From assembly GCA_041287335.1 (NCBI GenBank), contig JBEULM010000009.1:1-41446 (forward strand): 41,446 nt of DNA. The letters run 5' to 3'. The translations under genes were made by a program, and so were the position numbers. This document shows, in pieces, positions 15,063-20,487 of this stretch (its first letter is position 1; each line of letters begins with the position of its first letter). The DNA is from Hydrogenobacter sp. (GTDB lineage Bacteria > Aquificota > Aquificia > Aquificales > Aquificaceae). Below the pieces are notes generated by a model that was not told the DNA's origin, did no database searches, and worked only from the letters and a program-made list of their open reading frames with translations.

Positions 15063-18000
15063 ATGGGGGAAGAGCTTTCCATAATACTTGGCTTCGTCTT
15101 TGAGGGGACTTTTAAGCTGGGATTTTTGAAAGATAAGCTCAAAGATTATGAAGCCTACAAAAAGCATGTCTTTTCCAAAATAAGGCAAAGAATATCAGAA
15201 TCTTCCGAAGATCTGCAACAAGCCCTGTACCCACTTTTTTTAGATCTGGACTTAGAAAGTATTACACCTGTGGGCTTGGATATAAACCCCAAAAATTTAA
15301 GTCTTTTCCTCTCCGCCTTGGGCTACAAAGAAGGGCTTTTATATGGGATAAGTCACAAGGAAGTAGCTTTAAAAAAATACACTCTTGGGGATGAGTCCAC
15401 TCAGGTGGTTTGGGAGAATGCAGACCTCGTATTCGTGGATGGTAAAACACTCCATGTGGTAGATTTCAAAGTACATGGTTTCAGGGGGCATATGGAAAGT
15501 TTGATTGCATCAGCTCAAAGAAAGGAGGAAAAGTACATACCCTTCATAAACTACGGACATCCTGTAAATGTCTCTTTAGGTGAGCTAAGTCTCGAAGGCT
15601 TTCTTGAAAAGTTTTTAAGGGTAAGGGAAGAAGTGTATGAACTTGAAGAAGTCTTTGTAGAGATAAAGGGCTTTTTACAGCTTCTGTGTTATTGTGTGGA
15701 TTTTTTAAGCGATAAGAAAAATGCTGAAGATCTCCAAGAGGTGAGCCTTGAGTTGCTTTATCCTTTGCAGGAGCCTTTTAATGTGAGGTTGAGGATAGAA
15801 AACAGAGAGGGACTAAGAAAATACCTTGAGCCTATAAGAGAGCTATACAGGGAGTTAAAGAGAAGAGAAAGCCCTTACCGGGAAGCTAACTACCCTTCTG
15901 AGACAAGAAAGAGAAGGCTTTTGGAAGAAATAAGCAAAGAGATTTCAAAATATAGAGCTACCATAAAGGAGCTTGAAGAGAACGCCGTAGAGCTTGAGGT
16001 AAATCCCATAGGAGATGTAAGAGGTCATGTAAAGGAAAGTGTGAAAAGATTTATGCACATTGATGAACCTTGCAAAGCTTTGGTACTTTTGCATTCTGCA
16101 GGTAGCGGTAAAACTACTACGGTAAGGGAGCACATCCGAAAACTTGATGGAAAGCACATAGTCATTTACATGGCTACGAGAAAGATTCTGGTGGAAAGAG
16201 AGTTTGAAAAGATCAAAGAGCTTGAAGAGGAGGAAATAAAGGCTATAACAGTTGAAAAAAAGGCGCAGAAGCAGGATCTTTTAAGACACGAAGGGAGAGG
16301 ATTTGAGTCCGTGGGTGGTAAAAAGGGTATGTTGGCTTCCCTGATAGATGATATAAAAAGCCAGCCCGACGGTTACAGACAAATATGGGGCTTTGCCACC
16401 ATACAGACGCTTGTGGAATTTGGAGAAAAAAGCACCGCAGAACATTTAAAAAAACTGTTATCTAAAAGGATAATTGACCAGTATCACTTGCATTTCATAC
16501 TTGATGAGTTTTTGGGCTACAACAATGGGTTCTATGCTATAGATAAGCTCTTTGAGTTTGCAAGAGATGTAAAAAGTAAGGGAGGAAGAGCAAACCTCTA
16601 TATTTTTGATGCCAACGGATACTCACCCAAATTACTCTTAGGTATTTTAAAAGAATACGAAGCCTATAATGTGGTACCAGAAAGTTTAATACTTTGCGAG
16701 CATGTGCCTGAGCTTGAGTATGAGTATAAAGGCATACCCACTTACCTTTATGCAAAGCACGGATACCCAGCAAGCAAGCTTTATGTGTATAGGAAGTTTA
16801 TAAAGGGAGAGCATAACCTTAGAAGACGAATGGGAAAAGCATTAGAAGAGCTTGTAGATTATATTTGTCAAACTTTTGGCAAGCCATTAGAAGAACGACA
16901 AGAAGGTGAAAGGCAATCGGCTTTTGTATTTATTCAAGACAAGGACCTTATAGTGGATTTAAGTTCTATGTTAGAACAAAAAGGGTACAGTTGCATGATA
17001 GCAACTGCCAGTAGTAAGAAAAGTCAGGAAGAGATTTCTCGTGGTTCACAGGACTTTATACTGGGTACTTCTGCAGTCACAAGAGGCATAGATTTGAGCA
17101 GGGAACACAAACCTGTTGATTATATATACATACTTATTTCGGACTGGGGCATAGAAAACAACTTGGTAGAGGTCATACAAGCCATATCCAGAGCAAGAGG
17201 AGATGAGCAAACAGAAAAGAGGGAAAAACATTTACATCTTGTCTATCTTATCCAAAAACCGCAGGATTATGTTATAGAAAGCATAAAACATAACAATGAA
17301 AAGGTTGATGAGGAGGTCATAAGAGCAATATATAAAAAGGAGTATTTAAAGCAGAAGCTTGACCTTGATAAAGTAGTAGTAAAAATAGTGGAGCAATTTC
17401 TCTCGAACCCAGGTTCAAAAGCTCTGGTTCCTGTGCCAAGCCAATACAATACCGTTTATGTATCTAATAGAATAAGGCAGTTTGAGTCTGTTATAAACTT
17501 TTTGGACGATGTTTGGCTAATGGAAAGCAAAAGAAATAGCAAGGAAGCAAGCACTATATTTAATATAATTCAAAAACTTTACTCTGCTACATGCGTATAT
17601 ACAGAAGATATACCGAAGGACTTAAAAACCTTAGAGAATCTTAATTACTATCATCCTTATATATTATTAGAAAGAGCAAAGCTTTACATAAACGTGGACA
17701 ATGAAAAGAGGGAAGAAATAAAGAAGATGTTAGAAAAGGTTGAAAGTTTGATAAAGTCTCATAACAAGGAAAGGTATGAGGAGCTTGTTGATTTTTTAAA
17801 TAACACTTCCAGCGTAGAAGTTCAAAGAGTACCTATACTTCTACCTGTATACTCCTTAACTGTAGTCCAAAACATGCTTTTAGAGGGGCAAAGCGTCAAG
17901 TTTAAGTTAAGCTCAAGGGTTGGAAGAGGCGGGGCAAGGACTTTGGGTGCTGGTGCGCAAATATATACAGAATGCTATGCTGGAAGAAGCGCAAAGCGAT

Positions 18001-18116
18001 ACGCTTGCATACCTTTGGGTGAAGACTATCCTTACAAAGAGGTGTTAAGTGGAAGGTTTGCCAAGTTTCCTATAGAATTTATTAGAGCGCTTGTGGAGGA
18101 TAAATATGGGGCTTGA
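15063..18116 (+). CDS. RecB/Cas4-like nuclease fused to superfamily 2 helicase, candidate defence protein
   Basis: This large protein of 1017 residues is not a housekeeping helicase I recognise. The N-terminal third holds a PD-(D/E)XK-like site: D121 in ENADLVFVDG, then D134 and K136 in VVDFK, and a helix GFLQLLCYCV (about 203-212) resembling the Q-x-x-x-Y motif of RecB and Cas4 nucleases. A charged linker (about 255-325) leads to an SF2 helicase core. Walker A is AGSGKT (346-351), Walker B is LDEF (480-483), TSAVTRGID resembles motif V and QAISRARG (706-713) is motif VI. The last 250 residues match nothing I know. The ATG has no ribosome site. The next gene overlaps by 11 bases. Cas3 is unlikely because there is no HD domain or cas gene. 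Confidence 0.75.
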   Translation: MGEELSIILGFVFEGTFKLGFLKDKLKDYEAYKKHVFSKIRQRISESSEDLQQALYPLFLDLDLESITPVGLDINPKNLSLFLSALGYKEGLLYGISHKEVALKKYTLGDESTQVVWENADLVFVDGKTLHVVDFKVHGFRGHMESLIASAQRKEEKYIPFINYGHPVNVSLGELSLEGFLEKFLRVREEVYELEEVFVEIKGFLQLLCYCVDFLSDKKNAEDLQEVSLELLYPLQEPFNVRLRIENREGLRKYLEPIRELYRELKRRESPYREANYPSETRKRRLLEEISKEISKYRATIKELEENAVELEVNPIGDVRGHVKESVKRFMHIDEPCKALVLLHSAGSGKTTTVREHIRKLDGKHIVIYMATRKILVEREFEKIKELEEEEIKAITVEKKAQKQDLLRHEGRGFESVGGKKGMLASLIDDIKSQPDGYRQIWGFATIQTLVEFGEKSTAEHLKKLLSKRIIDQYHLHFILDEFLGYNNGFYAIDKLFEFARDVKSKGGRANLYIFDANGYSPKLLLGILKEYEAYNVVPESLILCEHVPELEYEYKGIPTYLYAKHGYPASKLYVYRKFIKGEHNLRRRMGKALEELVDYICQTFGKPLEERQEGERQSAFVFIQDKDLIVDLSSMLEQKGYSCMIATASSKKSQEEISRGSQDFILGTSAVTRGIDLSREHKPVDYIYILISDWGIENNLVEVIQAISRARGDEQTEKREKHLHLVYLIQKPQDYVIESIKHNNEKVDEEVIRAIYKKEYLKQKLDLDKVVVKIVEQFLSNPGSKALVPVPSQYNTVYVSNRIRQFESVINFLDDVWLMESKRNSKEASTIFNIIQKLYSATCVYTEDIPKDLKTLENLNYYHPYILLERAKLYINVDNEKREEIKKMLEKVESLIKSHNKERYEELVDFLNNTSSVEVQRVPILLPVYSLTVVQNMLLEGQSVKFKLSSRVGRGGARTLGAGAQIYTECYAGRSAKRYACIPLGEDYPYKEVLSGRFAKFPIEFIRALVEDKYGA

Positions 18117-20487
18117 ATTTGAAGCAAGAGAAAGGCAAGAAAAACTTGACTACTTTGCCAAGGGTGAATTTACAGATAGGTTTGTATATGCAGGTGTTTT
18201 TTTCAACAATGTGGAAGGCTACAAAAGAAGCTTGGCAAATCTGGTTTATAAGATTTACAGAAGGGAAGATGGCACGAAGGAGCTTTTTGAAAACTTTCTA
18301 CGTGATTTAAATTTTGAAGTAAAAGGTACAGCGCTCTACTATGCGACAGAAGTAAACAGATGGATAAAACCCTTTAAGCTTATAAGCGGTGGAAAAAGGG
18401 TATGTTTTGATAGGTATAAAAGGGATTCAAAGGTAAACATATTTGAGTTGAAGGTTCAAAGTTCCTATGAAATGGAAAAAAGGACTGGACTTGTTTTTCT
18501 TAGGCTCTTGGGCTTTGATTCAGAGAACCTTTCGGAAGAGATAAGGTGGAAGGCAAGGAAGGAAGTTTTATACCTTTGGTTAGAGCTAAGCCAAAATCAA
18601 GAAGTTAGGGAATACTTAACTAAGGTCAAGAACATAGTGGAGTGCATAGAGGAAGGGCTTGGGTATAACTACTTTAAGTTTCCTTTTAACAAACTCTTTT
18701 ACTATCTTGTGCCTATAGATTTTGATAGATTTGAAAACGCAGTGGTCATATCAAAGGCGAGTCTCTTTTTCAGAAAAGAGGAGACAGTCAAGGGTCTTTG
18801 GGACGAAATAATGCAAAAGATGGAAGAAGGACAAAAGAAAGACTTAGAATACTTTTTGGAAAAGGAGGGCTTAAGCTGGGACTTTATAAGGGAAAATTTA
18901 CGAAGGGCTTTGTCTTCAGATTTTTTAAAAAGTTTAAGACAAGATTGGAAGTTGGTAATTAGAAAAATACTGGAAGGATCAAAAAAAGATAAGGTTTTAG
19001 GTGTGTTTATGGGAAAAGGGCTTGAGGACAAAGGTACTATGTCTTATGGGAGGTTTTGTGTTCCAGACAGACGCATGGAGCTTTTGATCTTTGCGGAAGA
19101 TGGACTAACCTTAGAGTCTGGTGGTAAAGTCTATAATGCGCAACAGTTGGCTAATTTGTTAAAGGATAAGATTGAAAATGCTAAATTTGTAGGAGAATTG
19201 AAAATAACCGTAGATAGTATGGTGCGAAGTCTTGAGGCTCTCTTTGGCTTTTCAAAGCCAAAGGAGGAAGGCTCACGGGAGGAGTCTGTAAAGATAATGG
19301 ATATAATAAGGGGAAATTTGTGGAGAACGAATGGAAAAGTTAGAAGCAAAGAAACCCTTTCCTTACTTTATGCTTTCACGCATTTCTCCACAAGGCTTGC
19401 GGGTCTTGTAGGCAAAATAAAAAAAGAGAATAAGGTGCAAGGTATTTTGCTTTTGCTAAATACAGAGCTTGATGATGGCGAGCAGTACGCTCTTTGGAAT
19501 GACTTTAGCTTTATGTATGACTACTTTGGTGTTCCTGTACAAACTATAACCAAAAGATCTTTAAGGGTTTTGTTAGAAGGCGAAGAGAAGGAAGCAGATG
19601 CTACTATAAAAAATATAATAATAAGTCTTTATAAGGACTCAAAAACTCTGGAGTTTGAGTTTGAAGGTTTTAGCTTGCCCTCAGATACAGTAGTTTATGC
19701 AGTACTTGAAAAACCTTCACCAGCCATACTATACACTAAAGCAAGATTGGGTGAACGATCTATGGAAAGAGGCTTAAGACATATCCTTTATGAGGTATAT
19801 AAGATTAGTGTAAAAGACAAAAAAGCAAGCGTAGAGCTTGAAGACAAGTATCTTGTGATGGTTGGTGCTTACGGCGATGAGGCTAAAAAGCTTGAAAACT
19901 GGATAAGAGATGAGCTTCAAAAGAAAAACACACGTTTTTGCTTCATTACAGCTATGAAGGATTCTGTTCTTGAAGAGTTAGAAAACAGGCTCGGGAATCC
20001 TTCTGAACTTGAGGGTAAGGTGCTACGCATACGCTACAAGGAGCTAAAGACAGCCTACTTTTCACAGAAGGCTGATAAGGACTGTTATGTGATATACAGC
20101 CAAGAGATGCTAAAACTCTTTGAAACCCTTGGTATTCAAACAGACAAGGGTGCCGCCGCCATAGCTATAAAGCCTACAAACTCTCAAAGATACGAAGACT
20201 ACTACCATACAGCTCTTCAAGTCTTCTTCACTGAACGCATTGGCTGGCAGAGGGAAGAGGTCTATGCGGAAAGAAAAAGTCTCTTTATATTTACAGTACT
20301 TGCCCTTTCCATGTATGAAAGCGAATCTCACAAAACACCTTACAGCAAGCTTGAGCTTTGGTCAAAGGATAAAAGTGTATATGTAGAGATAACTCGTGGA
20401 TACAACACCTATGAGTTTCCTCTAAGAGCCATAACCTATGAGCTTCTTCACCTAATAGCTCCACTGCCTCTCAAAGAGAACCTATAG
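18106..20487 (+). CDS. divergent Argonaute-like (MID/PIWI) protein, candidate catalytically inactive
   Basis: A 793-residue protein with no obvious standard domain. By hand, the region from about 435 to 700 follows the order of Aquifex Argonaute. First comes a MID-like strand (GILLLLNTELDD) and helix, then GVPVQTITKRSL (V476, Q479), where Argonautes have 'IPSQ.I..RTL'. NIIISLYKDSK then stands for the 'N...LAKTG' helix, and DTVVYAVLE (527-535) for the first PIWI strand 'DAFVGID'. Further on, CFITAMKDSVLEEL occupies the place of 'VVHRDGR...EV', followed by VLRIRYKELKTAYFS. The catalytic aspartates seem missing, suggesting a binding-only long pAgo. The ATG at 18106, with GGAGG six bases before it, is preferred to a TTG at 18091. 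The upstream nuclease-helicase would provide catalysis. The assignment is inference; another unknown family remains possible. Confidence 0.45.
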   Translation: MGLEFEARERQEKLDYFAKGEFTDRFVYAGVFFNNVEGYKRSLANLVYKIYRREDGTKELFENFLRDLNFEVKGTALYYATEVNRWIKPFKLISGGKRVCFDRYKRDSKVNIFELKVQSSYEMEKRTGLVFLRLLGFDSENLSEEIRWKARKEVLYLWLELSQNQEVREYLTKVKNIVECIEEGLGYNYFKFPFNKLFYYLVPIDFDRFENAVVISKASLFFRKEETVKGLWDEIMQKMEEGQKKDLEYFLEKEGLSWDFIRENLRRALSSDFLKSLRQDWKLVIRKILEGSKKDKVLGVFMGKGLEDKGTMSYGRFCVPDRRMELLIFAEDGLTLESGGKVYNAQQLANLLKDKIENAKFVGELKITVDSMVRSLEALFGFSKPKEEGSREESVKIMDIIRGNLWRTNGKVRSKETLSLLYAFTHFSTRLAGLVGKIKKENKVQGILLLLNTELDDGEQYALWNDFSFMYDYFGVPVQTITKRSLRVLLEGEEKEADATIKNIIISLYKDSKTLEFEFEGFSLPSDTVVYAVLEKPSPAILYTKARLGERSMERGLRHILYEVYKISVKDKKASVELEDKYLVMVGAYGDEAKKLENWIRDELQKKNTRFCFITAMKDSVLEELENRLGNPSELEGKVLRIRYKELKTAYFSQKADKDCYVIYSQEMLKLFETLGIQTDKGAAAIAIKPTNSQRYEDYYHTALQVFFTERIGWQREEVYAERKSLFIFTVLALSMYESESHKTPYSKLELWSKDKSVYVEITRGYNTYEFPLRAITYELLHLIAPLPLKENL

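Follow-up and report, generated by a model that had tools for sequence, protein, structure and literature searches.

Two adjacent genes in the window (the whole stretch of Hydrogenobacter sp. DNA analysed here, 41,446 nucleotides) probably constitute a mobile genome-defence unit of the type in which an Argonaute finds the target and a helicase-nuclease destroys it. The first gene codes for P1, an N-terminal RecB/Cas4-type PD-(D/E)XK nuclease fused to an SF2 helicase, and the second codes for P2, a protein with a remotely Argonaute-like predicted fold. The pair appears to be related to the plasmid-destroying systems DdmDE and ApsAB, with its parts in a different arrangement.

Organisation of the locus

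Both open reading frames are present as the sequence-only reading had described them, that is, as two long overlapping genes of the plus strand flanked by genes of the minus strand. P1 spans positions 15063–18116 (plus strand, ATG start) and is 1017 aa long. The P2 frame spans 18091–20487 on the same strand and would yield 798 aa if counted from the TTG at 18091; the ATG at 18106, giving 793 aa, is the more likely start, since a Shine-Dalgarno sequence, GGAGG, lies 6 nt ahead of it (18095–18099). With this start the two genes overlap by 11 nt, an overlap that suggests translational coupling. On the left, the pair is flanked by minus-strand genes for 6-phosphogluconate dehydrogenase (gnd) and glucose-6-phosphate dehydrogenase (zwf-like) and, on the right, by minus-strand genes for a histidine kinase and a response regulator. 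The features of the locus are the following:

15063–18116, plus strand: P1, N-terminal RecB/Cas4-type PD-(D/E)XK nuclease fused to an SF2 helicase (ORF, Pfam, Foldseek)
15390–15692, plus strand: nuclease core of P1, about aa 110–210 (residues invariant in 13 homologues; AlphaFold secondary structure)
16089–17201, plus strand: helicase motifs of P1 (homologue alignment)
18095–18099, plus strand: probable ribosome-binding site of P2, GGAGG, within the end of P1 (6 nt before ATG 18106)
18106–20487, plus strand: P2, Argonaute-like protein of 793 aa (Shine-Dalgarno sequence, AlphaFold, PDB matches)
19486–19641, plus strand: putative MID-like guide-end pocket of P2 (conserved columns; PADLOC pAgo profile on the P2 of locus L048)
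19708–20442, plus strand: PIWI-like RNase H region of P2, tetrad apparently broken (motif in the alignment, not superposition)

The nuclease-helicase P1

The comparison of P1 with Pfam gives Helicase_C (1.7e-5) and ResIII (6.9e-5), both above the cut-offs; the helicase alone is recognised in this way, and the N-terminal nuclease gives no match. The AlphaFold model of the protein (pLDDT 78, pTM 0.80) is matched by Foldseek to SF2 helicases (RecQ, UvrB and RadD), with a best E-value of 8e-9. The helicase motifs, located between aa 345 and 713, comprise SAGSGKT (345–351), D481-E482, F515-D516-A517, TS..(S/T)RG (669–675) and Q706..R710.R712.G713, and GKT, DE and QxxxRxRG, together with K350, are invariant in 13 homologues. 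They are preceded by the nuclease motifs (aa 111–210), where E111, N119, D121, D134-x-K136 and Q206-x3-Y210 are likewise invariant in 13 homologues, with identities down to 23%. The succession D...DxK...QxxxY is the motif set of the RecB/Cas4-type PD-(D/E)XK nucleases, and the core displays a strand-strand-helix pattern in the AlphaFold model. Because Pfam misses this domain, it is assigned from its motif and from the secondary structure. Thus the PD-(D/E)XK site and SF2 helicase that had been read from the letters of the first gene are confirmed, with D121, D134, K136 and K350 all invariant and with the helicase given by both Pfam and Foldseek. PADLOC matches of P1 to PDC-M16A, Cas3d and PbeA were taken as generic because their coverage is mainly of the Walker A region or the helicase core.

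A stand-alone homologue of the P1 helicase, 1161 aa long (hhalign 99.5%), is encoded in genomes G111 and G105 (L058:5413–8898 and L134:7613–11101), with a fragment in G110. In this protein, a distant relative of P1, the nuclease DxK reads DLS and the nuclease is probably dead. A broader pairing that would include this family was rejected, given the loss of the nuclease lysine and the lack of a P2-like neighbour in G111 and G105.

The Argonaute-like protein P2

Sequence searches with the window copy of P2 against Pfam, NCBIfam, PADLOC and the PDB yielded no match of note. An Argonaute-like fold is supported by the AlphaFold model (pLDDT 72, pTM 0.72), which was built from an input of 7 sequences and is weak in the C-terminal third: at E<=1e-3, the 23 Foldseek matches of this model in the PDB are all Argonautes, with RsAgo as the best (3.3e-7) and with SPARTA, CpAgo, AaAgo and SPARDA also represented. 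Ranks 24–28 are occupied by human Argonautes and by the CDK8 kinase module, one subunit of which, MED13, carries a PIWI module. As a control, the model was compared with a library of viral structures, without any match at E<=1e-3. Global TM-scores between the model and RsAgo are low (0.31/0.34), and the likeness to Argonautes is therefore remote and at the level of domains. The sequence-only reading had marked the Argonaute-like nature of the second gene as an inference; the fold matches now speak for it, and the model resembles proteins with MID/PIWI folds, as had been expected.

Independently of the model, the PADLOC pAgo profile weakly matches two relatives, the P2 proteins of loci L048 (7e-5) and L050 (2e-3), in and about the putative MID region. 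No similarity emerged when P2 was aligned, profile against profile, with ten long-A pAgos from the same order, and none of 14 P2 proteins matches the Pfam models pPIWI_RE, Piwi or MID at E<=1.

In the putative MID region, the residues Y461, W464, P477, Q479-T480, K502-N503 and S507 are invariant in 14 homologues, and position 510 is K or R across them (P2 residue numbers are one higher than in the homologue alignment, which starts one residue later). Conservation does not extend to the Y-x3-K half of the guide-pocket motif, in which N, D or P replaces the lysine. At three of the four presumed positions of the catalytic tetrad, assigned by motif, P2 has an invariant E535 (first-Asp position), D/E619 and an invariant K748 that sits in 'Y-(S/A)-K', where Asp/His would be expected. 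With E535, D/E619 and K748 at these positions P2 would be a non-slicer, and its slicer site is probably inactive. Closer to the C-terminus, R764 and E779 are invariant.

Distribution and pairing of P1 and P2

P2 has a patchy distribution, being found in 22 of 136 genomes of the phylum, and P1 is found in 22 of the 112 genomes of the order, in three of them by helicase similarity only. The pairing is conserved in genome neighbourhoods: P1 lies directly upstream of P2, on the same strand, in 20 of 20 Aquificota genomes with readable upstream sequence. Two genomes are outside this count: in G034 a contig edge leaves a 48-aa fragment, and G039 has a P2 remnant and no P1. In a table of 14 loci, the two genes share a few nucleotides or are separated by a gap of <=3 nt, except for one case of longer overlap, which hinges on the choice of start. 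By name, the carriers include Aquificaceae, Hydrogenobacter, Thermocrinis and Sulfurihydrogenibium MAGs, plus one Candidatus Caldipriscota MAG in which the two genes are also adjacent. In this MAG (L065:9983–15062), P1 is accompanied by a P2 that is interrupted by an assembly gap (Ns). A V-type ATPase-like gene that hardly occurs in the order of the Aquificota carriers is present on the Caldipriscota contig, and the L15 encoded there is only 50–63% identical to that of the order; therefore, a misplaced Aquificaceae contig is not a sufficient explanation, and a transfer of the pair across phyla is probable.

Other Aquificaceae have a second subfamily of the pair (L055/L070, L056/L071 and L053), which is deeply diverged, with 20–25% identity to the window. 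Ordinary Piwi-domain Argonautes (L088–L098) are present in 12 of the 112 genomes of the order, and by Pfam only G048 combines one of them (a fragment) with the P1–P2 pair; in G006 the PADLOC pAgo profile has a separate match, on contig C47. The genome of the window has no Pfam Piwi match, though it encodes P2. Searches of plasmid records and viral contigs returned no detectable relative of the pair, and its comparison with named defence families gave no strong match.

Selection, transfer and turnover

Both P1 and P2 are under purifying selection (dN/dS = 0.11–0.18), and this, along with their recurrence as an adjacent pair in 20 genomes, indicates that they are not chance ORFs. The two proteins have diverged together, their pairwise identities being correlated across 13 genomes (r=0.98). 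The genes around the pair differ in most loci, so that its homologues lack the single, fixed housekeeping context that would have told against the defence reading. In addition, the pair has moved between genera. The window copy is closest to one from another genus and groups with genus g6, and in the P1+P2 tree the monophyly of the window's own genus (g1) is rejected (AU p=1.3e-72); by contrast, the neighbouring gnd gene keeps this genus together in its tree. In an empty-site comparison, the orthologues of the two flanking genes were far apart in relatives, gene order in the family being too scrambled for such a comparison to be informative.

Turnover can be observed at a chromosomal site shared by two g6 species (G046/G035; L044 versus L046), where P1 is 49% and P2 45% identical while the flanking genes are mostly 80–96% identical, with one short ORF at 49%. 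Such a contrast would be explained if the pair had been replaced locally or had evolved very fast. In G054 the copy of the pair is broken into pieces. As for G039, its P2 remnant (L059:14248–15135 = L052:8248–9135) joins the first ~190 and the last ~105 residues of the protein, with P1 absent, and adjoins a gene of restriction type for a 1120-aa PLD-nuclease/SNF2-helicase; it is a decayed copy beside another probable defence gene. As judged from these genomic patterns, the pair behaves as a mobile, fast-turning-over unit that is selected while present, which fits a defence-like role.

Relation to known systems

Argonaute-guided use of a helicase-nuclease is not a new principle, since DdmDE and ApsAB are known and a 2018 survey had reported PD-(D/E)XK/helicase orthogroups (og_6, og_34 and og_37) in pAgo operons (PMC6299218). 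In the plasmid-eliminating system DdmDE of Vibrio cholerae, DdmD combines an SF2 helicase and a PD-(D/E)XK nuclease, and DdmE is an inactive long pAgo-like protein (PMC12409362). The P1–P2 pair shares with it the two-gene operon of a helicase-nuclease and an Argonaute-like protein; however, the nuclease is C-terminal in DdmD (PMC12409362) and N-terminal in P1. Profiles of P1 and P2 run against all PDB chains, with DdmD and DdmE assumed from the library date to be included, found neither of them at E<=10, and both are absent from the best 50 Foldseek matches of P1 and P2. ApsAB, an antiplasmid system of E. coli ST38, also joins a nuclease/helicase to a remotely Argonaute-like partner whose pocket is MID-like (PMC11096173), and is known mainly from Enterobacterales, other Proteobacteria and cyanobacteria (PMC11096173). 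ApsA, however, is much longer than P1 and has its nuclease at the C-terminus (D1420, D1433, K1435; PMC11096173), and the Y-x3-K..QG..K of ApsB is only partly kept in P2 as Y461-x3-(N/D/P), Q479-T480 and K/R510. The separation of P1 and P2 from DdmDE and ApsAB is drawn from the published descriptions, plus the PDB profile and fold searches for DdmD/DdmE.

More distant likenesses exist. The long-B pAgo systems BPAN, BPAS and BPAM, as well as RsAgo, similarly associate an inactive long pAgo with an effector, but their effectors are a nuclease without helicase, Sir2 or membrane proteins (PMC10620215), whereas P1 has a helicase and P2 has no Pfam Piwi match. The PIWI-RE/DinG/REase triad also encodes a PIWI module with a nuclease and a helicase, but it consists of three genes, its DinG-type helicase has Fe-S cysteines and its proteins belong to Pfam families of their own (PMC3702460), none of which applies to P1–P2. 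The 2018 survey catalogued pAgos by recognisable domains, whereas P2 has no Pfam-detectable Piwi domain, and a search of its text found no mention of Aquificota (PMC6299218). In the literature searched, limited to open-licence papers, no description of the P1–P2 family or of its architecture was found, and the pair looks like a distinct, unlisted variant that differs in nuclease position, sequence and MID motif. The proposal of an undescribed defence system made in the sequence-only reading is therefore kept in part: the variant appears distinct and unlisted, but the recruitment of a helicase-nuclease by an Argonaute was already known (PMC11096173, PMC12409362, PMC6299218).

Proposed mechanism and alternatives

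According to the preferred model, P2, as a long, probably non-cutting Argonaute-like protein, would bind the 5' end of a short guide in the MID-like pocket and, once loaded, might pair with invading DNA from a plasmid or phage. Target recognition would then recruit or release P1, whose SF2 helicase is predicted to translocate along the target DNA and unwind it, while its N-terminal nuclease would cut or degrade it. No source of guides is encoded. It is unlikely that the outcome is instead an indiscriminate DNase killing, although inactive long-B pAgos with a PD-(D/E)XK partner work in this manner (PMC10620215) and RsAgo, the best structural match of P2, is itself a long-B pAgo. The complete and invariant SF2 helicase of P1 suggests processive action, as in DdmDE and ApsAB, while the BPAN nuclease has no helicase, and the authors of the ApsAB study had no evidence of cell killing (PMC11096173). 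Since the executor P1 possesses a helicase, the processive destruction of the bound DNA is favoured.

Another explanation, which is very unlikely, is a PIWI-RE-type R-loop restriction system (PIWI module, DinG helicase and REase) with the nuclease and the helicase fused. The same three activities are encoded there in the same order (nuclease, helicase, PIWI) and with close gene spacing (PMC3702460), and P2 has the invariant R764 and E779; however, these two residues are at the very end of the protein, and no correspondence to the R and E of PIWI-RE could be established. Furthermore, the Pfam models tried on the 14 P2 proteins gave nothing, and the cysteine cluster conserved in DinG helicases is missing from P1, whose structural neighbours are RecQ, UvrB and RadD. 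Membership of the PIWI-RE group was accordingly rejected by Pfam, gene count and helicase type. Finally, a RecB/Cas4-type nuclease and a RecQ/UvrB-like SF2 helicase are typical repair parts, and guide binding by P2 is itself a prediction, so that the pair might process DNA damage or replication forks, with P2 sensing DNA ends or structures and not being guide-directed. This is the least probable of the explanations, against which stand the patchy presence of the pair, its inter-genus transfer, a divergence far above that of its neighbours, and its remnants and broken copies. Patchiness, transfer, turnover and purifying selection therefore point to a mobile, dispensable unit fitting defence and argue against a core repair role.

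Significance

The P1–P2 family is at present missed by sequence-based defence libraries, and P2 extends the remote Argonautes to genomes without a Pfam-visible Piwi. The pair is carried by heat-loving Aquificota bacteria, and thermophile proteins generally have the stability that structural work requires. With respect to mechanism, the share of the nuclease domain in plasmid loss by DdmDE and ApsAB is still open (PMC12409362), and the location of the nuclease at the opposite end of the helicase in P1 would make it possible to test which spatial arrangement is required. Only DdmDE and ApsAB turned up as Argonaute and helicase-nuclease systems in the literature searched. It is quite possible, if still tentative, that the pair represents a third, independently assembled lineage of this kind, separate from both and characterised by an N-terminal RecB/Cas4-type nuclease and a long-B-like Argonaute. 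If this is true, the partnership would have arisen more than once, and the Aquificota would offer a thermostable version of it for the study of its mechanism and for tools.
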